Assembly (NCBI GenBank): GCA_009843735.1
Contig: VYCW01000102.1
Location: 1 to 54,606, forward strand
Length of the DNA stretch: 54,606 nucleotides
Origin: Acidimicrobiaceae bacterium
Lineage (GTDB): Bacteria > Actinomycetota > Acidimicrobiia > Acidimicrobiales > Aldehydirespiratoraceae
Reading direction: 5' to 3'
The notes below the pieces were generated by a model that ran no database searches, was not told where the DNA came from, and saw nothing but the letters and a program-made list of their open reading frames with translations. Each line of letters begins with the position of its first letter. Within the stretch, counting starts at the first letter, position 1. This document shows positions 10,217 through 19,841 of this stretch, piece by piece. Both the position numbers and the translations under genes were made by a program.

Positions 10217-11200
10217 CTAGCTGATGAGGGTGCGGTTGTGCCAGCGGTCTGCGGTCTCGGTGTGGGCTGCGTCGCTGAGGGGCACGTAGCCGACCTCGCT
10301 GACGGCCTGGGTGAGGGCGTCGGAGACGTAGAAGTCGAGGTAGGCGTCGATCGCGGGGTTGGCTGCGGCCTTGTCCGCGTTGACGTAGATCCACAGGTCC
10401 CGGCTGACCGGGTACTCGTTGGAGGCGATGGCGGCTTCGGTGGGCTCGACGCATCCGTTGCCGCCGTCGACCTCGAGCAGCTTCACGCCCGAGGCGTTGA
10501 CGGCGAAGGCGAAGCCGACCCAGCCCAAGCTGGTGTCGCTGGACTGGATGCCCTGCAGGATGACGTTGTCGTCGCCGGAGGGGCTGTAGTCGGTGCGGGT
10601 GGTGGCGTCGGTGCCGGCCTCCTCGGCGAGGTCCTCGAGGACGATCTCGACGAAGGAGTCGAAGGTGCCTGATTCCTCGCCGGGCCCGAAGATGTCCAGC
10701 GGCGCGTCGGGCAGGCCGTCGGAGGCCTCGGCCCAGGTGCTGGTGCCCTCGCCGTTGGGTCCGATGAGGTCGAAGAGCTGGTGGAAGCTCAAGCACTGGA
10801 CGGCGTCGTTGCCGGCGTTGGTCATCACCGCGATGCCGTCGATGGCCACCTTGAGCTCGACGATGTTGGTGATGCCGGTCTCGAAGCAGTCCTCCTTCTC
10901 GGCGTCCTTGATCTGGCGGGAGGCGTCGGAGATGTCGGTGGCGCCCTCGCAGAACAGCTTGAAGCCGTCGCCGGTGCCGGGACCGTCCACGGTCACCGAG
11001 ACGTCCGGGGCCACGTCCTCGAACAGCTCCGCCACCCGGATCGAGATCGGCTCGACCGTCGACGAACCCGAGATGCTCACCTCGCCGGAGACCGTGGGGG
11101 TCTCCTCTTCGACGTTGTCGCCACCGCATGCTGCGGCCACCAGCGACAGCGTTACGAGAATCACCGGCAGCCACAGCAGCCGGCGCCTTGATCTGCGCAC
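10217..11200 (-). CDS. pstS: Phosphate-binding lipoprotein PstS
   Basis: A 327-residue periplasm-facing binding protein. MRRSRRRLLWLPVILVTLSL then VAAACGG forms a lipoprotein signal, with the lipidated Cys near residue 25. The phosphate-binding loops are visible: ISGSSTVEPISIRVAELF, DGPGTGDGFKLFCEGATDIS and GEESGTFDSFVEIV, all PstS hallmarks. GTG 11200 is supported by AAGGAGG at 11211-11217 on the minus strand, about 10 bases upstream. It is the first gene of the pst-phoU-senX3 operon, and the PHO box about 90 bases upstream implies strong induction when phosphate is scarce. Confidence 0.95.
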   Translation of the reverse strand: MRRSRRRLLWLPVILVTLSLVAAACGGDNVEEETPTVSGEVSISGSSTVEPISIRVAELFEDVAPDVSVTVDGPGTGDGFKLFCEGATDISDASRQIKDAEKEDCFETGITNIVELKVAIDGIAVMTNAGNDAVQCLSFHQLFDLIGPNGEGTSTWAEASDGLPDAPLDIFGPGEESGTFDSFVEIVLEDLAEEAGTDATTRTDYSPSGDDNVILQGIQSSDTSLGWVGFAFAVNASGVKLLEVDGGNGCVEPTEAAIASNEYPVSRDLWIYVNADKAAANPAIDAYLDFYVSDALTQAVSEVGYVPLSDAAHTETADRWHNRTLIS

Positions 11201-11338: not shown

Positions 11339-12466
11339 CTAGCCGAGGGAGTCCAGGGCGTCTTGGAGGCGGCCGGCGTTGAACTGGCCGACCCTCTCGA
11401 CCTGGGTCACGCCTGCGCCGTCGAGCAGTATCAGGTTGGGGTTCCCGGCGCGGTAGTGGCGCCACGAGACCGGGAAGCTCTCCCACAACATGTTGGGCGG
11501 ACCCCCGTAGGCGGCCAGGAAGCTCTCGGCCTGGGCGAGGCTGTCTGTACCGCCCACCCCTATGACGATGACCTTGCCTTCGTTGTCTCGAGCGAACTGC
11601 TCGACCGACGGTGCTTCCCGCCGGCAGGTCGGTCAATGGGGCGCCCAGAACCACAGAAGCAACGGCGTGGAGCCGTCCACGAAGTCCCGGAGATTGACGG
11701 TCGCGCTGGTGCGCACGTCGATCAGCTCGTCATCGGGCACGTCGGTCGCGAGGATCGCGGGGGCGGCGGTGGTGGTCGTGGTGGGTGCCGCCGTGGTGGT
11801 CGGTGCGGCGGTGCTGGTGGGGGCGGTGGTGGTCGTGGTGGGTGCGGCCGTCGTCGTGGTTTCGGCTGCGGCTACGGCCGCCGCTTCGGCTTCGGCGGCG
11901 GCCTGGGCGGCTGCCTCCGCGGCGGCTTGGGCTTCGGCTTCGGCTGCGGCTCGGGCGGCGGCTTCGGCTTCGGCGGCGGCCTGGGCTGCCGCGGCCGCGG
12001 CTGCCTCGGCTGCGGCGGCTGTGGCCGCGGCTTCGGCTTCGGCGGCTGCTTGGGCGGCGGCTTCGGCTTCGGCGGCTGCTTGGGCGGCTGCCTCCGCGGC
12101 TGCTTGGGCGGCTGCCTCCGCTAAGGCGGCTTCGGCTTCGGCCTCGGCGGCTTGGGCTTCGGCTTCGGCTGCGGCTTGGGCGGCGGCCTCGGCCTCAGCC
12201 GCGGCGGCTTCAGCGGCGGCCTCGGCTTCAGCCGCGGCGGCTTCAGCCTCGGCCTCGGCTTCAGCCGCGGCGGCTTCAGCCTCGGCCTCGGCTTCAGCCG
12301 CTTGGGCCTCGGCGAGGTCGGTGTCGACCGCGGCGCTGGTCGTGGGCGTCACGGCACCGGCGTCCGGGCTGTCTGGACCCGGCTCCCCGTCGGTGCCGCA
12401 GGCTGAGGCCAGCAGGGCCGCAGCGGAGAGCGCCACGGCAACTCGGAATCGGTGCGGCACTGTCAT
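11339..12466 (-). CDS. Candidate selenoprotein: UxxC thioredoxin-fold lipoprotein with Ala/Glu-rich stalk
   Basis: ATG 12466 to TAG 11339 reads as 375 codons with one in-frame UGA at codon 278 (11635-11633). Upstream of the UGA is LLLWFWAPH, downstream PTCRREAPSVEQFARDN, so the UGA replaces the first Cys of a CPTC thioredoxin motif, giving U-P-T-C. The rest of the fold continues with VIVIGVGG and a proline loop GNPNLILLD. Domains: lipoprotein-like signal with LLASAC (Cys 23), acidic linker, Ala/Glu-rich helix (51-202), Thr/Ala/Pro linker (203-236), redox domain (about 243-375). It resembles secreted MPT53/TlpA-type thiol oxidoreductases. The frame starts three bases after the preceding paralogue. 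UGA is an ordinary stop elsewhere in the window. Selenocysteine is inferred, not proven; a nonsense-mutated pseudogene is the alternative. Confidence 0.82.
11603..11634 (-). promoter_or_regulatory. Candidate bacterial SECIS hairpin, first redox gene
   Basis: Starting at the second base of the UGA, GACCGAC (11634-11628) is perfectly complementary to GTCGGTC (11609-11603). Inside, TGC (11626-11624) can pair with GCA (11614-11612), leaving a nine-base apical loop rich in G. A stem that includes the UGA base and a loop carrying G residues is the general form of bacterial selenocysteine insertion elements. The loop begins nine bases after the UGA, somewhat closer than in the Escherichia coli formate dehydrogenase element. 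No folding program was run. Confidence 0.5.
11759..11860 (-). repeat. Thr/Ala/Pro-rich linker coding repeat
   Basis: Residues 203-236 of the candidate selenoprotein consist of runs of Thr separated by AAP or TAP. This is a typical extended, probably flexible and possibly glycosylated linker in exported actinobacterial proteins. It joins the helical stalk to the redox domain. Confidence 0.75.
11861..12316 (-). repeat. Ala/Glu-rich low-complexity stalk-coding repeat
   Basis: Residues 51-202 are almost only Ala and Glu with occasional Gln, in patterns such as EAEAAAQAAAEAEA. This has very high helix propensity and no heptad of larger hydrophobics, suggesting an isolated rod rather than a classical coiled coil. 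At the normal rise of an alpha helix, about 150 residues would span roughly 23 nm. The DNA is correspondingly repetitive (GCCGAAGCCGAGGCC-type units), so length may vary between strains. Confidence 0.8.
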
Positions 12467-12469
12467 CGC

Positions 12470-13081
12470 TCAGGTCAGGGTGGCCAGCTGCTCGATGAGG
12501 CTGTCCGGGTCATAGCTGCCGGCGCTGCCCTCCACGACGTTGCCGCCGCGGTCGAGCAGCATCACGGTGGAGTTGCGGCGCACACCGAAGTGGCGCCACG
12601 ACTCGTTGGAGTCGCTCCACAGCATGGTGAAGGTGGTGCCGGTCCGCTCGACGAAGCTCTGGGCGTAGGCGAGATCGTCCTGGGCGCCGATGCCCACCAC
12701 CTTCACTGTGTCTGGGTTCTCCTGAGCGAACTGCTCAAGCTCAGGGCCCTCGGCCCTGCAGGTCGGTCAATGGGGCGCCCAGAACCAGAACAGCAGGGGA
12801 GTGGACCCGTCGACGACCGCTTGGAGGCTGACGGCCTCGTCGGTGTGCACGTCGATCATCTGGAGGTCCGGGACATCGCCCGGCCCCGCAGCCACGGCGC
12901 TGCCGGTGCCGGCCGTCTCCGACTGGTCAGTGACCGCCGAGGTGGCGGGCGACTCCTCCCGCTCTACCGGGGCTTCCGGATCGGTGGTCTCGATGACGGT
13001 GATCGGATCGTCGGAGCCGCAGGCCGCGGCAAACATGGCCAGGGCGATGGCCGCGGCGAAGGTGACGGGTCGGAACCTCAT
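12470..13081 (-). CDS. Candidate selenoprotein: UxxC thioredoxin-fold lipoprotein (short paralogue)
   Basis: ATG 13081 to TGA 12470 reads as 203 residues with one in-frame UGA at codon 105 (12769-12767). Flanks are LLFWFWAPH and PTCRAEGPELEQFAQEN, giving U-P-T-C exactly as in the neighbouring gene. The N-terminus MRFRPVTFAAAIALAMFAAAC is a lipoprotein-like signal (Cys 21), followed by a short acidic, unstructured linker (about 22-75) and the redox domain. Where the paralogue has the NPNL proline loop, this one has NSTVMLLD, so the cis-Pro typical of thioredoxins is missing. ATG 13081 overlaps the preceding gene's stop (ATGA) and the stop lies three bases before the next start, so the genes are coupled. 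Selenocysteine is inferred from position, duplication and continued homology. Confidence 0.82.
12721..12768 (-). promoter_or_regulatory. Candidate bacterial SECIS region, second redox gene
   Basis: Two mutually exclusive perfect seven-base-pair stems follow the UGA. CAGGGCC (12758-12752) pairs with GGCCCTG (12748-12742) around a GAG loop. CCTGAGC (12745-12739) pairs with GCTCAGG (12727-12721) around an eleven-base loop containing G residues. Their loops begin 15 and 28 bases after the UGA, within the range described for bacterial SECIS elements. Which one forms, if either, cannot be decided by eye. Confidence 0.45.
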
Positions 13082-13668
13082 TCGTCCTTCTTCTTGCCGC
13101 GAGCCTTCTGGGCTTTCTTCCAGGCTCGAACCCGCTGGAGCGCCTCGGGTCCGTCGATGTCGGCCACCGATCGGGGCTGATCGTCCGAGAACGCTCCCGC
13201 CTGCTGGTGCCAACCCTCCGGACGCACACCGAAGCGCTTGGCCAGCACGGCGGTCAGGATCCGGGCCTTCTCGTCGCCGTAGCCGGGCAGGTCCCGCAGT
13301 CGCCCGAAGAGTTCTTCGCCGGTGCCGGCATCGGCCCAGATGGCGCCCGCGTCCCCGCCATAGCAGTCCGCGACGTGCCGGCACAGGGCCTGCATCCGCT
13401 GGGCCATCGACCCGGGGAACCGGTGCAGGGCCGGCTTGGCCCTCACCAGCGCCGCGAAGGCCTCCGGGTCACGCCCGGAGATGTCGCAGGCGTCCAACTC
13501 CGAACCGAGCCGTTCGGCCAGACGGTGAGGGCCCATGAACGCCCACTCCATGGGGATCTGCTGGTCGAGCAGCATCCCCAGCACCAGCGCCAGCGGGTCG
13601 TTGTTCACCAGCCGGTCGGCGGCCTCGTCTCCCGTGACCGCCAGAGTTCCTGTCGGGGTCGGGGTCAT
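13078..13668 (-). CDS. HhH-GPD-type base-excision DNA repair protein
   Basis: About 196 residues from ATG 13668 (ATG 13680 is an in-frame alternative). Recognisable features are LVNNDPLALVLGMLLDQQIPMEWAF near the N-terminus and the helix-hairpin-helix LRDLPGYGDEKARILTAVLAKRFG, as in the actinobacterial uncharacterised HhH-GPD family related to DNA glycosylases. The Cys-rich iron-sulfur tail of MutY/Nth is absent. The C-terminus is strongly basic (ARGKKKDE). The start overlaps the aceE stop (ATGA) and the stop overlaps the next gene's ATG, so it sits inside a coupled chain with two candidate selenoproteins. Confidence 0.85.
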   Translation of the reverse strand: MTPTPTGTLAVTGDEAADRLVNNDPLALVLGMLLDQQIPMEWAFMGPHRLAERLGSELDACDISGRDPEAFAALVRAKPALHRFPGSMAQRMQALCRHVADCYGGDAGAIWADAGTGEELFGRLRDLPGYGDEKARILTAVLAKRFGVRPEGWHQQAGAFSDDQPRSVADIDGPEALQRVRAWKKAQKARGKKKDE

Positions 13669-16406
13669 CGATCGGAGCATAATCTCGCGCCGGTGTCGGG
13701 ATGGCCCGGATCGTCGCGTTCCGCCTCGATGCCGTATCGCTCCATTGCCGCGGCCACCTCGTCCGGCTCGGCCTCGCCCGAGGCCACCAGGGCTGACAGC
13801 ACGGCCACCACGATGTGGTCGGCGTCCACCTCGAAGAATCGCCGGAGCGCCTCGCGGGTGTCCGAGCGGCCGAACCCGTCGGTGCCCAGCACGTGCAGGG
13901 GCCTGGGCGTGAAGCGGGCGATCTGGTCGGGGACCAGGGTCATGTAGTCGGTCACGGCCACGATCGGGCCGTCGGAGTCCGACAGCCGCCGGGTGACGAG
14001 AGGGACGGCCGGATCGCTTCCGGGGTTCAGGCGGCTCCTGCGCTCGACGTCGAGGGCCTCCCGGCGCAGGCGCTGGTAGGAGGTGGCGCTCCACAGTTCG
14101 GCCGAGACGTCATGGTCGGCGGCCAGCCGCGCTTGGGCTTCGAGCGCGGCGCCCACCGATGCGCCCGAGAACAGGATGGTGGCGCAGCGACCGCGCCCGC
14201 CTGGCCCGTCGTCGAACTTGTAGAGTCCGCTGCAGATGTCCTCGTCGCTCACGTGGTCGGGCCGGGGCGGCTGCTCGTAGTTCTCGTTGTAGATCGTGAT
14301 GTAGTAGAAGACGTCGGTTCCGTCGCCGGCGTCGGGCGGGCACATCCGGCGCACGCCGTCGTCGATGATGGCCCCCAGCTCGTAGGCGAAGGCCGGGTCG
14401 TAGGCCTCGCAGGAGGGGACGGTCGACGCCAGCACATGGCTGTGACCGTCCTGATGCTGCAGTCCTTCGCCGGGCAGCGTCGTGCGCCCCGCGGTGGCGC
14501 CGATGAGGAAGCCTCTCGCCCGGGCGTCGGCCGCCGCCCAGATGGAGTCGCCCACCCGCTGGAAGCCGAACATCGAGTAGAACGCGTAGAAGGGCACCAT
14601 CGGAACGCCGAGGTTGGCGTAGGACGTGGCCGCGGCCAGCCAGCTCGCCAGCGAGCCGCACTCGGTGATGCCCTCCTCGAGGATCTGGCCGTCCGAGGAC
14701 TCGCTGTAGCTCAGCAGCAGGTCGTGGTCGACCGGTTCGTAGAGCTGGCCGTGGGGCGCGTAGATCTTGAACTCCCGGAACAGCGAGTCCATGCCGAAGG
14801 TCCGGGCCTCGTCGGGAACGATGGGCACGACGCGGGGTCCGAAGTTCAGGTCGCGCAGCAGGTCGCGCAGCAGGCCGGTGAAGGCCATGGTGGTAGACAC
14901 CTTCCGCCCGCCGGAGCCCTTGCGCACGTCCAGGAAGGGACCGTCGGCGGGAGGCACGATGGGTCGGCGGTCCCGGACCACCCGGCGGGGCACCGCGCCG
15001 TCGAGGGCCCGGCGGCGATCCATCATGTACCGGATCTCCTCGGAGTCGGGAGCCGGCCGGTAGTACGGGGGGATGCCGTCGGCGAGGTCCTCCTCGGCGA
15101 TCTCGTTCTCCATGTGCAGCCGGGACCGAAGTTCCATCAGCTGCGAAGTGGTCATCTTCTTGATCTGGTGGGTGGCGTTGCGGCCCTCGAAGCCCTGTCC
15201 CAGGGTCCATCCCTTGATCGTCTTGGCCAGGATGACAGTGGGCTGGTCCTTGACCTCGACGGCCGCCTTGAACGCGGCGTAGACCTTCTGGTAGTCGTGG
15301 CCGCCTCTCGGCAGGACGCGCAGGTCCTCGTCGGAGAGGTGGTCGACGAGCTTTCGCAGCCGAGGATCGGGGCCGAAGAAGTGCTCCCGGATGTAGGCGC
15401 CGGTCTCCACCGCGTAGCGCTGGTACTCGCCGTCGACGGTGGTCGCCATCTTGTTGAGCAGGGCCCCGTCGGTGTCGCGCATCAGCAGCTCGTCCCACCG
15501 GGTGCCCCAGATCACCTTGATCACGTTCCAGCCCGCGCCCCGGAACACGCCCTCGAGCTCCTGGATGATCTTGCCGTTGCCCCGCACCGGGCCGTCGAGG
15601 CGCTGGAGGTTGCAGTTGACCACCCACTTCAGGTTGTCGAGGTCGCTGCGTCCGGCCAGCGCGATGGCCCCCAGGGTCTCGGGCTCGTCGCACTCGCCGT
15701 CGCCCAGGAAGCACCACACCGTGCTGCCGGACGTGTCGTCGATGCGTCGGTGGTGCATGTACCGGTTGAAGCGGGCGTGGTAGATGGAGTTGATCGGCCC
15801 CAGCCCCATCGACACCGTCGGGTACTCCCAGAAGTCGGGCATAAGCCGCGGGTGGGGGTAGCCCGACAGGCCGTTGCCGCCGACCTCCATCCGGAAGTTG
15901 TCGAGCTCCCGCTCGCTCAAGCGGCCCTCCAGGTAGGCCCGGGCGTACACGCCGGGAGCGGCGTGGCCCTGGAAGTAGATGTGGTCGCCGACCAGGCCGT
16001 CGTCCTTGCCCTTGAAGAAGTGGTTGAAGCCCACCTCGTACAGCGAGGCCGACGAGGCGAAGGTGGACAGGTGGCCGCCGATCCCGTCGGCGGTCTTGTT
16101 GGCCCTGATCACCATGGCTGCCGCGTTCCACCGGATGAAGCGTCGGATGCGGCGCTCGACCTGCTCGTTGCCGGGGAAGAAGGGCTGCTCGGAGGCTGGG
16201 ATGGTGTTGATGTAGGGCGTGTAGGTGGTGGGCGGGACGCCCAGTTGCTGCTCGTTGGACCGCTCGAGCAGCTTGGCCACGATGTAGCGGGCCCTCTCCC
16301 GCCCGCCGGCGGCCACCACGGCGTCGAGCGAGTCGATCCACTCCTGGGTCTCGGCCGAGTCGGTGTCGGGCAGCTGGCGCAGGAAATTGTCGGCCATGGT
16401 TTCCAT
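13665..16406 (-). CDS. aceE: Pyruvate dehydrogenase E1 component, homodimeric type
   Basis: A 913-residue thiamine-diphosphate enzyme, within the normal size of AceE. The N-terminal region has RRIRRFIRWNAAAMVIRANK and GIGGHLSTFASSASLYEVGFNHFF (active-site His region). The ThDP-magnesium motif GDGECDEPETLGAIALAGRSDLDNLKWVVNCN is intact. The central transketolase-like domain contains GITECGSLASWLAAATSYAN, and the C-terminal domain is present (LHVLGTDGFGRSDTREALR). It decarboxylates pyruvate and reductively acetylates the lipoyl group of E2. The E3, E2 and lipoate genes lie on the other strand 2-7 kb away. ATG 16406 is used, with ATG 16397 (MADNFL) possible. Confidence 0.95.
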   Translation of the reverse strand: METMADNFLRQLPDTDSAETQEWIDSLDAVVAAGGRERARYIVAKLLERSNEQQLGVPPTTYTPYINTIPASEQPFFPGNEQVERRIRRFIRWNAAAMVIRANKTADGIGGHLSTFASSASLYEVGFNHFFKGKDDGLVGDHIYFQGHAAPGVYARAYLEGRLSERELDNFRMEVGGNGLSGYPHPRLMPDFWEYPTVSMGLGPINSIYHARFNRYMHHRRIDDTSGSTVWCFLGDGECDEPETLGAIALAGRSDLDNLKWVVNCNLQRLDGPVRGNGKIIQELEGVFRGAGWNVIKVIWGTRWDELLMRDTDGALLNKMATTVDGEYQRYAVETGAYIREHFFGPDPRLRKLVDHLSDEDLRVLPRGGHDYQKVYAAFKAAVEVKDQPTVILAKTIKGWTLGQGFEGRNATHQIKKMTTSQLMELRSRLHMENEIAEEDLADGIPPYYRPAPDSEEIRYMMDRRRALDGAVPRRVVRDRRPIVPPADGPFLDVRKGSGGRKVSTTMAFTGLLRDLLRDLNFGPRVVPIVPDEARTFGMDSLFREFKIYAPHGQLYEPVDHDLLLSYSESSDGQILEEGITECGSLASWLAAATSYANLGVPMVPFYAFYSMFGFQRVGDSIWAAADARARGFLIGATAGRTTLPGEGLQHQDGHSHVLASTVPSCEAYDPAFAYELGAIIDDGVRRMCPPDAGDGTDVFYYITIYNENYEQPPRPDHVSDEDICSGLYKFDDGPGGRGRCATILFSGASVGAALEAQARLAADHDVSAELWSATSYQRLRREALDVERRSRLNPGSDPAVPLVTRRLSDSDGPIVAVTDYMTLVPDQIARFTPRPLHVLGTDGFGRSDTREALRRFFEVDADHIVVAVLSALVASGEAEPDEVAAAMERYGIEAERDDPGHPDTGARLCSDR

Positions 16407-18428: not shown

Positions 18429-19841
18429 GTGAGTGACGCAACCCACGACGTAATCGTCATCGGAGGAGGACCCGGCGGCTACGCCGCGGCCCTGCGCGGC
18501 GCGGGTGCCGGCCTCGACGTGGCCGTCGTTGAGAACAACAAGGTCGGGGGAACCTGTCTCCATGTCGGCTGCATCCCGGCCAAAGAACTGCTTGAGGCCG
18601 CCTCCGTGTACCGCACCGTCGCAGCCGCAGCCGAGTTCGGGATCACCGCGTCGGTGCCGGGCATCGACTGGCCGACGGTGCTCGGCCGCAAGCAGCGGGT
18701 CATCGATCAGCTCACCGCGGGGCTCTCCGGGCTGCTGGGCCACCGCAAGGTCACCGTCTACTCCGGTTCCGGCACCCTGAGCGAGCCCGGGACGGTTGAG
18801 GTGACTCCCGCCGGCGGGGAGACCCCCATGGCGGTGACGGCACCGTCGATCATCCTGGCCACGGGTTCGATCCCCCGAACGATCGGCGGCTTCGAGGTGG
18901 ACGGCCGCGTCGTGGTCACATCCGACGAGCTGTTCTTCCTGGACCGCCTGCCCACCTCGGCCGCGGTCATCGGCGGGGGTGCCATCGGTTGCGAGTTCGC
19001 ATCGATGATGGGCGACCTCGGCGTCGACGTGACCGTGCTGGAGGCGCTGCCCAGCATCCTCGCCGGATGCGATGTCGACGTGGCCAAGGTCGTGCGCCGC
19101 TCCTTCCGCAAGCGGGGCATCGCGGTGCACACCGGCGTGACCGTGCACGGCCACGAGCCGCAGGCCGGCGGCGCCGGCACGGTGGTCTCCTTCGGCGAGG
19201 GCAAGCAGGTCGAAGTCGACCTGGTGGTGGTGGCGGTGGGACGGCGGCCCCGCACCGAGGGCCTGGGGCTGGAGGCCGCCGGAGTAGCGGTCGACAGCCG
19301 GGGATTCGTCGAGGTCGACGCCCGATGCCGCACCAGCGCGCCGGGCGTGTGGGCCGTGGGCGACGTGGTCGACACCCCCCAGCTCGCCCACACCGCCTTC
19401 GCCGAGGGGATGCTCGCCATCTCCGACATCTGCGGCGAGGATCCTGACCCGCTCGACTACCACGGCACGCCGTGGTGCATCTACAGCCATCCCGAGGTGG
19501 CCTTCGCTGGACACACCGAGCAGAGCGCGGTGGACGCAGGATTCGAGGTGGTCACGTCCACCCACCGGTTCATGGGCAACGGCCGCGCCCAGATCCTCGG
19601 CGAGACCGACGGCCTAGTCAAGGTGATCGCCGAGAGGCTCGCCGACGGCACCGGCGGGCGGATCCTGGGTGTCCACATGGCCGGCCCGTGGGTCACGGAA
19701 CAGCTCGGGCAGGCCTATCTGGCGGTCAACTGGGAGGCGACCGCCGCCGACGTCGCCGGCCTGATCCAGCCCCACCCCACTATGAGCGAACTGTTCGGCG
19801 AGGCCGCCCTGTCCCTGACGGGCCGCTCGCTGCACGGTTAG
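18429..19841 (+). CDS. lpdA: Dihydrolipoamide dehydrogenase (E3)
   Basis: A 470-residue flavoprotein disulfide reductase. FAD motif VIVIGGGPGGYAAALRGAGAG, redox-active disulfide GGTCLHVGCIPAKELL, NAD motif AAVIGGGAIGCEFASMMGDLG, second FAD motif GVWAVGDVVDTPQLAH, and the C-terminal His-Pro active site LIQPHPTMSELFGEAAL are all present. It reoxidises the dihydrolipoyl group of E2 using NAD. GTG 18429 is the start. The E2 gene follows after 13 bases with a GAGGAGG ribosome binding site, so the two are cotranscribed. Confidence 0.95.
   Translation: MSDATHDVIVIGGGPGGYAAALRGAGAGLDVAVVENNKVGGTCLHVGCIPAKELLEAASVYRTVAAAAEFGITASVPGIDWPTVLGRKQRVIDQLTAGLSGLLGHRKVTVYSGSGTLSEPGTVEVTPAGGETPMAVTAPSIILATGSIPRTIGGFEVDGRVVVTSDELFFLDRLPTSAAVIGGGAIGCEFASMMGDLGVDVTVLEALPSILAGCDVDVAKVVRRSFRKRGIAVHTGVTVHGHEPQAGGAGTVVSFGEGKQVEVDLVVVAVGRRPRTEGLGLEAAGVAVDSRGFVEVDARCRTSAPGVWAVGDVVDTPQLAHTAFAEGMLAISDICGEDPDPLDYHGTPWCIYSHPEVAFAGHTEQSAVDAGFEVVTSTHRFMGNGRAQILGETDGLVKVIAERLADGTGGRILGVHMAGPWVTEQLGQAYLAVNWEATAADVAGLIQPHPTMSELFGEAALSLTGRSLHG

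Follow-up and report, generated by a model that had tools for sequence, protein, structure and literature searches.

A tandem pair of candidate selenoredoxin lipoproteins with short and long tethers in an Acidimicrobiia genome

We analysed a 54,606-nucleotide stretch of DNA (the window), contig VYCW01000102.1 of assembly GCA_009843735.1 from an Acidimicrobiaceae bacterium, with regard to two adjacent minus-strand genes, A and B, each interrupted by one UGA codon at the active site of a thioredoxin fold. The explanation that best accounts for the sequence data, to which we assign a probability of about 0.9, is that the two genes encode a pair of exported, tethered selenoproteins, which would carry out thiol-disulfide chemistry in the cell envelope. 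It is close to certain, judging from sequence, that genes A and B are genuine selenoproteins; the proposal of the initial annotation that UGA encodes selenocysteine (Sec) at the nucleophilic position of a CxxC motif is supported by the genes for Sec synthesis, by alignment with cysteine homologues and by a covarying selenocysteine insertion sequence (SECIS). Very probably, the two proteins are also extracytoplasmic thiol-disulfide enzymes. The kind of selenoprotein is already known, because redoxin or peroxiredoxin-like selenoproteins are listed in three publications (PMC13188914, PMC9312934, PMC2398784), and the paired short- and long-tether architecture is the newer part; it recurs in four families, in one of them with an S-layer-bound partner.

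In-frame UGA codons in two redoxin genes

Gene A lies upstream of gene B (Table 1), and the two share the motif WFWAPH-U-PTCR, with UGA at the first position of the thioredoxin CxxC motif. Two adjacent frames interrupted in this way at codons 278 and 105, with coding preserved for about 97 codons downstream, had been described in the initial annotation; both statements hold on the minus strand, where the frame remains open past the UGA for 98 codons in gene A and 97 in gene B, up to the next stop. Third-position GC content is high on both sides of the UGA (0.88 before and 0.92 after it in gene A, 0.76 and 0.88 in gene B). Both proteins combine UxxC with a match to the Pfam family Redoxin (PF08534) above its cut-off of 26.6 bits (5.4e-16 and 59.2 bits for A, 4.2e-7 and 30.3 bits for B), with weaker matches to AhpC-TSA and Thioredoxin, and the domain matches span the UGA. 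A plain list of open reading frames stops both genes at this codon (11633-12466 and 12767-13384), and standard gene calling would therefore truncate every surface enzyme of this lineage at its catalytic motif.

Searches with the window protein supplied the Sec loci, and UGA forms were the basis of a hidden Markov model. A family match at E <= 1e-8, a threshold that includes ordinary redoxins, was found in 191 of 395 Acidimicrobiia genomes; at E <= 1e-20, 56 genomes carry a UGA form and six a Cys form only. In an alignment of 117 family domain rows the catalytic column holds UGA in 96 and Cys in 21, so that the cysteine homologues, whose alignment had been suggested at the outset, carry Cys in the same column; the ratio of the two is uninformative, because duplicate genome copies are counted and 20 of the Cys loci were fetched deliberately. 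Every Sec row has exactly one in-frame TGA (the stretches were cut beforehand at TAA and TAG), and the open domain measures 111-141 residues in all rows but one, which is clipped by the end of its locus. Downstream of the UGA, the nonsynonymous rate is lower than the synonymous rate (dN < dS) in all ten chosen pairs, which are not all independent.

The named relatives are mostly metagenome-assembled genomes (MAGs) of Acidimicrobiia, and in eight of the ten loci found there the best segment, of 150 residues or more, matches gene A with an identity of 53% or higher; the relative in MAG L052 is 91% identical and likewise carries the UGA. In a phylum-wide sample, the family profile has matches at E <= 1e-20 in 48 of 396 genomes, and matches containing a single in-frame UGA occur in 15 genomes that do not belong to the class. 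The four of these that were checked (L182, L190, L191 and L193) show UGA in the aligned column and a pairing hairpin. A tree of 118 rows contains five changes between Sec and Cys, of which at least two are forced by well-supported branches.

SECIS hairpin and selenocysteine machinery

To characterize the insertion signal, we aligned the 60 bases from the UGA onwards for 86 distinct Sec sequences, without gaps. RNAalifold, applied to the full set, predicts a single hairpin (columns 32-37/43-48) with the loop AGUUN, and in genes A and B this covarying hairpin lies inside or at the edge of the two stretches where the initial annotation had looked for a SECIS (11590-11640 and 12710-12770). All six pairs form in 77 of the 86 sequences and five of six in the other nine, with stems such as UCGAGC/GCUCGA, UUGAGC/GCUCAA, UCGGGC/GCCCGA and UUGCAC/GUGCAA. 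In a seven-pair version 89.4% of the cells are paired, the outermost pair being open in 55 of 86 sequences, and slid registers of the same alignment reach 20-44%. Four pairs are changed on both sides, a number equalled in 4 of 500 shuffles, and there are 39 doubly changed cells compared with 14.2 in the shuffles (0 of 500 as high). Cys homologues (n = 20; L061, an unrelated Cys row found through the gene A peptide pattern, is left out) form at most four of the six pairs and have the loop G in nine cases. Of 95 Sec rows, 86 use GCT for the stem alanine; among the other downstream alanine codons the figure is 62 of 617.

In all 86 distinct sequences the five-nucleotide loop has G at its second position, and in 85 of them the next base is U. 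The stem has 6-7 pairs, the loop is 34 nucleotides from the UGA, and the local energies are -9.8 and -8.8 kcal/mol. In loop, spacing and stem, both hairpins fit the bacterial SECIS consensus as outlined in section 5 of a 2026 review (PMC13188914), namely a five-nucleotide loop with G at position 2 and a spacing of 16-37 nucleotides. Many family members depart from this consensus in that another hairpin, variable in form, is predicted to lie between UGA and SECIS.

A search of the window's genome with the SECIS model returned the two window sites (8.2e-16 and 2.2e-13) and three weak sites (0.0185 to 0.665) among the best 150 of 6845 candidates. The UGAs near the weak sites lie in short frames (68 codons upstream and 44 downstream at the longest), and we take these sites as chance matches, not as further selenoproteins with this SECIS. 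The model would miss other types of SECIS, because coding conservation is built into it, and SelD is not listed by it.

As a side observation, Cys versions of the redoxin occur at L074-L080 in family f8 (G087, G342, G177, G229, G095 and G291), where the hairpin region forms at most three of six pairs; of these six genomes G087 alone has SelA.

The draft genome that contains the window is 84.6% complete and consists of 140 contigs with a total length of 3.43 Mb. The initial annotation had called for a search for selA, selB, selC and selD. These searches found SelA (1.8e-91) with SelB adjoining it (8.9e-82), and a SelD above its cut-off (L011, G000:C15:8228-9142, minus strand); selC is present as a fragment only. 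No tRNA-Sec exceeded the Rfam cut-off among the best 150 of 736 candidates that were scored. A DNA search with the tRNA-Sec region of the same genus identified the last 51 bases of the gene at the end of contig C45 (L154:1-51), identical to the corresponding bases in the same-genus genomes G388 and G380. The family search missed the gene because an assembly break cuts it. A complete tRNA-Sec was found in all ten relatives chosen, each a UGA-form genome, at 58-67 bits (cut-off 47), and the aligned matches of G388 and G380 have a UCA anticodon loop. Across the class, SelA was detected in 53 of the 56 UGA-form genomes and in one of the six with the Cys form only (Fisher p 5e-5, uncorrected for kinship); eight genomes with weak SelA matches are omitted from this tally, and the counts are unaffected, as none of them belongs to either set.

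A single in-frame UGA at GAG-U-GCK, the usual Sec site of SelD, makes the SelD of this genome a further selenoprotein candidate.

Anchors, tethers and gene neighbourhood

Both genes are predicted to start with a signal peptide followed by a lipobox cysteine, called with a pattern of our own after the lipobox rule and not with a trained predictor. The anchoring part of the earlier proposal, that these are membrane-anchored selenium-dependent thiol enzymes, is supported by this pattern in both genes; the enzymes may be oxidases, reductases or peroxidases. The coordinates of all features are given in Table 1.

Table 1. Features of the selenoredoxin gene pair and its neighbours in the window
Feature	Position	Strand	Basis
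Gene A, candidate short-tether selenoredoxin lipoprotein, 203 aa, TGA terminal stop	12470..13081	-	Pfam, translation
Gene B, candidate long-tether selenoredoxin lipoprotein, 375 aa, TAG terminal stop	11339..12466	-	Pfam, translation
UGA read as Sec, codon 105 of gene A (UxxC)	12767..12769	-	aligned column in relatives
UGA read as Sec, codon 278 of gene B (UxxC)	11633..11635	-	aligned column in relatives
SECIS hairpin, gene A, 7 bp, loop AGUUC, 34 nt UGA to loop	12721..12739	-	covariation; coordinates by arithmetic
SECIS hairpin, gene B, 6 bp, loop AGUUC	11588..11604	-	covariation; coordinates by arithmetic
Predicted lipobox Cys, codon 21 of gene A (FAAAC)	13019..13021	-	own pattern after lipobox rule
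Predicted lipobox Cys, codon 23 of gene B (LASAC)	12398..12400	-	own pattern after lipobox rule
Short tether, gene A, 43 aa	12890..13018	-	coordinates by arithmetic
Long tether, gene B, 214 aa (118 Ala, 44 Glu+Gln, 37 Thr+Pro+Ser)	11756..12397	-	coordinates by arithmetic
HhH-GPD family protein (26.8 bits, cut-off 26.2), stop overlaps start of gene A	13078..13677	-	Pfam
PstS-like substrate-binding protein, downstream; pst genes and phoU beyond	10217..11200	-	Pfam

Tandem pairs with UGAs 0.6-1.8 kb apart were found in 17 loci rows, several of which are second copies of one genome. In family f1 the tethers of the two members measure 43 and 214 residues in the window, 25 and 218 in G388, and 25 and 238 in G380; the corresponding values are 43/152 (G252), 45/161 (G320) and 31/157, Thr/Pro/Ser-rich (G383) in f14, and 36/131 (G157) in f2. 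In f50 (G137, G327 and G369) a lipoprotein with a tether of 71, 138 or 127 residues stands beside a protein with an SLH domain. All these pairs are unequal, with start codons that were chosen by rule and are in part uncertain. The pairs of f14, f50 and f2 fall into separate clades of the tree, and the short-plus-long arrangement therefore seems to have arisen more than once, as far as can be judged from the sequences of a small sample in which the pattern was noticed post hoc.

A Pfam search on nine relatives revealed SLH domains in six and FKBP in one. The six are Sec redoxins of f50 with an N-terminal SLH region (L037:2053-3138, L123:1431-2561, L101:1965-3083, L106:1269-2453, L124:1905-3224 and L042:213-1349), which are probably bound to the wall instead of to lipid. 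In the remaining case (L041:1441-2415, genome G379) the Sec redoxin is fused to a C-terminal FKBP peptidyl-prolyl isomerase.

Of 28 regions examined, 10 have an HhH-GPD gene upstream; these 10 belong without exception to the named relatives L052-L059 or to the same-genus L167 and L168, and the genus relatives keep this gene together with an aceE-like gene and the pst genes. The window also encodes a pyridine nucleotide-disulphide oxidoreductase (18429-19841, plus strand), with relatives 1-7 kb away in five of 21 Sec-redoxin regions (the window, L167, L168, L156 and L166; L156 has another subtype, with Reductase_C). Given this distance and the two subtypes, the association is perhaps due to chance, and we do not accept the enzyme as a partner. 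Near the gene pair lies the aceE-like gene, for pyruvate dehydrogenase E1, which presumably points to an aerobic life. Aerobic bacteria rarely keep selenoproteins, according to section 10 of the 2026 review (PMC13188914), and an extracytoplasmic Sec beside a pyruvate dehydrogenase E1 gene would run counter to this rarity.

Function, alternative explanations and known systems

In the proposed mechanism, SelA, SelB, SelD and tRNA-Sec would read one UGA per gene as selenocysteine, with insertion directed by the hairpin whose loop lies 34 nucleotides downstream, as sequence and covariation suggest. The proteins, exported and lipid-anchored as predicted from signal peptides and lipoboxes, would present the redoxin domain with its Sec nucleophile near the membrane in A (a tether of ~43 residues) and further out in B (~214 residues, rich in Ala, Glu and Gln), so that the two arms may serve different depths of the cell wall. 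There they would act on envelope proteins as thiol-disulfide (selenenylsulfide) oxidoreductases, comparable to mycobacterial DsbF and DsbE.

The nearest solved structures in the profile search are DsbF (3ios, 2.2e-26) and MPT53/DsbE (1lu4, 4.3e-24), which are again the nearest in a single-sequence search. The DsbE family TIGR00385 of NCBIfam is not reached (43.5 and 34.6 bits, cut-off 123.15), and PHROGs gave no match for either protein. DsbF and DsbE/MPT53 are described as oxidants that fold hirudin oxidatively, in the part of PMC3853704 that deals with them. The FKBP fusion hints in the same direction, towards protein folding. We lean slightly towards a folding role over a purely reductive or antioxidant one, at close to even odds.

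The active site may differ among family members. Ser or His stands in place of the thioredoxin-fold cis-proline in 45 of 94 Sec forms versus 1 of 24 Cys forms with a residue at this site (Fisher p 3.6e-5, three gap rows excluded); the proline is replaced in gene A (NST; window 12473-12907, alignment A2) and not in gene B. On the tree the loss amounts to only five changes, which follow a few clades, and a test on independent pairs gave no support for a link with Sec (two pairs on well-supported branches, p 1); for both reasons we do not claim that Sec causes the loss of cis-proline. According to the passages of PMC2757866 on this residue, it is conserved more strongly across thioredoxin-fold groups than the CxxC pair and may prevent metal binding, and peroxiredoxins carry Arg in its place.

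Several observations weigh against the explanation by a tethered selenoprotein pair. The genome, 84.6% complete, has of its own tRNA-Sec only the 3' fragment, which lacks the anticodon; the Rfam cut-off is unspecific when used alone, as 5 of 14 control genomes exceed 47 bits, and a further match barely above it occurs in both G380 and G388. Three of the 56 UGA-form genomes (79, 96 and 82% complete) have no detected SelA. In a larger set of Cys rows, one of 25 reaches five of six hairpin pairs; this is L061, an unrelated thioredoxin without the loop G. Kinship alone can push sequences above shuffles in the absence of structure, which the slid registers did not do. Conservation of the gene context is confined to the genus and to f14, which has a context of its own, and contexts differ elsewhere in the 21 regions compared; no clear redox partner was found beside the genes among the neighbours annotated, in sets of two, ten, eight (genes of the window) and three. 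VKOR was not found in the incomplete genome, and its CcdA is already accompanied by an adjacent Cys redoxin. There is just one FKBP fusion, and its draft genome (G379) yielded no SelA.

Among the alternatives, a surface reductive antioxidant system like that of pneumococcal Etrx1 and Etrx2, in which electrons from CcdA would reach methionine sulfoxide reductase or peroxides, is possible, at rather less than even odds. Selenocysteine favours reduction and resists over-oxidation, Etrx structures (2yp6, 4hqz and 4hqs) are among the structure matches, and the genome has CcdA and, as far as it is complete, no VKOR; the nearest solved relatives, in turn, are the oxidants DsbF and DsbE. Etrx1 and Etrx2 are portrayed in the relevant passages of PMC3914529 as two surface thioredoxin lipoproteins fed by CcdA whose genes sit with ccdA, whereas the annotated neighbours of the selenoredoxins include neither ccdA nor msr (no genome-wide search for Msr was made). 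The CcdA-like gene of this genome (L195, G000:C25:61311-61976) directly follows a canonical Cys redoxin (NFFASWCPPC), with which it forms a separate pair.

Decoding of the UGA as a residue other than Sec, for instance Cys or Trp, through reassignment or suppression is very improbable, even if homologues carry Cys at the aligned residue. We reject an alternative genetic code, because gene A itself ends in UGA and so do 50 of the 95 Sec rows whose end can be read (a count that includes window genes and duplicates), in agreement with the earlier remark that UGA serves as an ordinary stop elsewhere. In addition, the genome contains SelA, SelB, SelD and the tRNA-Sec fragment, its SelD carries a UGA itself, and the hairpin accompanies UGA and not Cys. 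A pseudogene pair or an assembly error, for which one could invoke the MAG origin of the data and a relative that looks like a decaying copy (L187, G043:C79, with an extra TAG in the hairpin region), has a negligible probability and is refuted at the family level by the same single UGA recurring in 96 domain rows from many assemblies, including the one-contig genomes G322, G002, G157 and G027, and by purifying selection downstream of it; the absence of sel genes and the downstream loss that the initial annotation had named as signs of decay were not seen, and frames are intact in relatives, with the G043 copy as the exception.

The tethered selenoprotein pair may also bear on selenium use in sponge symbionts. 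A 2017 study reports the joint presence of SelA and SelB in the majority of symbiont bins and their absence from most closely related reference genomes, in a passage that names no selenoprotein (PMC5649159). The selenoredoxin family offers a candidate selenoprotein within one class, with a ready SECIS model. Speculatively, and with low probability, Acidimicrobiia might possess a surface selenium relay, in which tandem short-reach and long-reach (or S-layer-bound) selenoredoxins, acquired seemingly independently in four families, span the monoderm wall; several lineages would use Sec without cis-proline (Ser/His), in an altered active site for which metal binding or activity on peroxides is conceivable, and this one use of selenium could explain the enrichment of SelA and SelB in sponge symbionts.

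We found no description of a paired, tethered selenoredoxin design in the open-licence PMC literature on selenoproteins and Acidimicrobiia. The family did not turn up when the deep-Sep and Actinospongicola papers were searched by word; a 5200-organism survey contains none of the words redoxin, thioredoxin and Acidimicrob, and 'Actino' is absent from the 2026 review. The selenium passage of the UBA5794 actinobacteria paper concerns selenate and selenite reduction, not selenoproteins. In Table 1 of the 2026 review, a 'Redoxin family protein' is entered as a predicted selenoprotein with UxxC and PF08534 (PMC13188914), a 2022 review names a 'Redoxin family protein' without a domain in its corresponding entry (PMC9312934), and Table 2 of the GOS paper has 'Prx-like 3', a distant pfam08534 match with UxxC (PMC2398784). 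The selenoproteins listed in the 2026 review, where HEU0032618.1 is the representative, and in the GOS paper share PF08534 and UxxC with genes A and B, and the table entries give no tether, tandem pair, SLH or FKBP.

Like genes A and B, Etrx1 and Etrx2 of Streptococcus pneumoniae are two paralogous surface lipoproteins with a thioredoxin fold; unlike them, they are described in those passages of PMC3914529 as Cys enzymes without Sec, encoded in two separate ccdA operons and not in tandem. DsbF (Rv1677) and DsbE/MPT53 (Rv2878c) of Mycobacterium tuberculosis, the nearest solved structures, resemble A and B as extracytoplasmic thioredoxin-fold proteins of an actinobacterium (PMC3853704). Their active site holds Cys, in contrast to the UxxC of proteins A and B, which belong to a family with some long tethers and an often replaced cis-proline.

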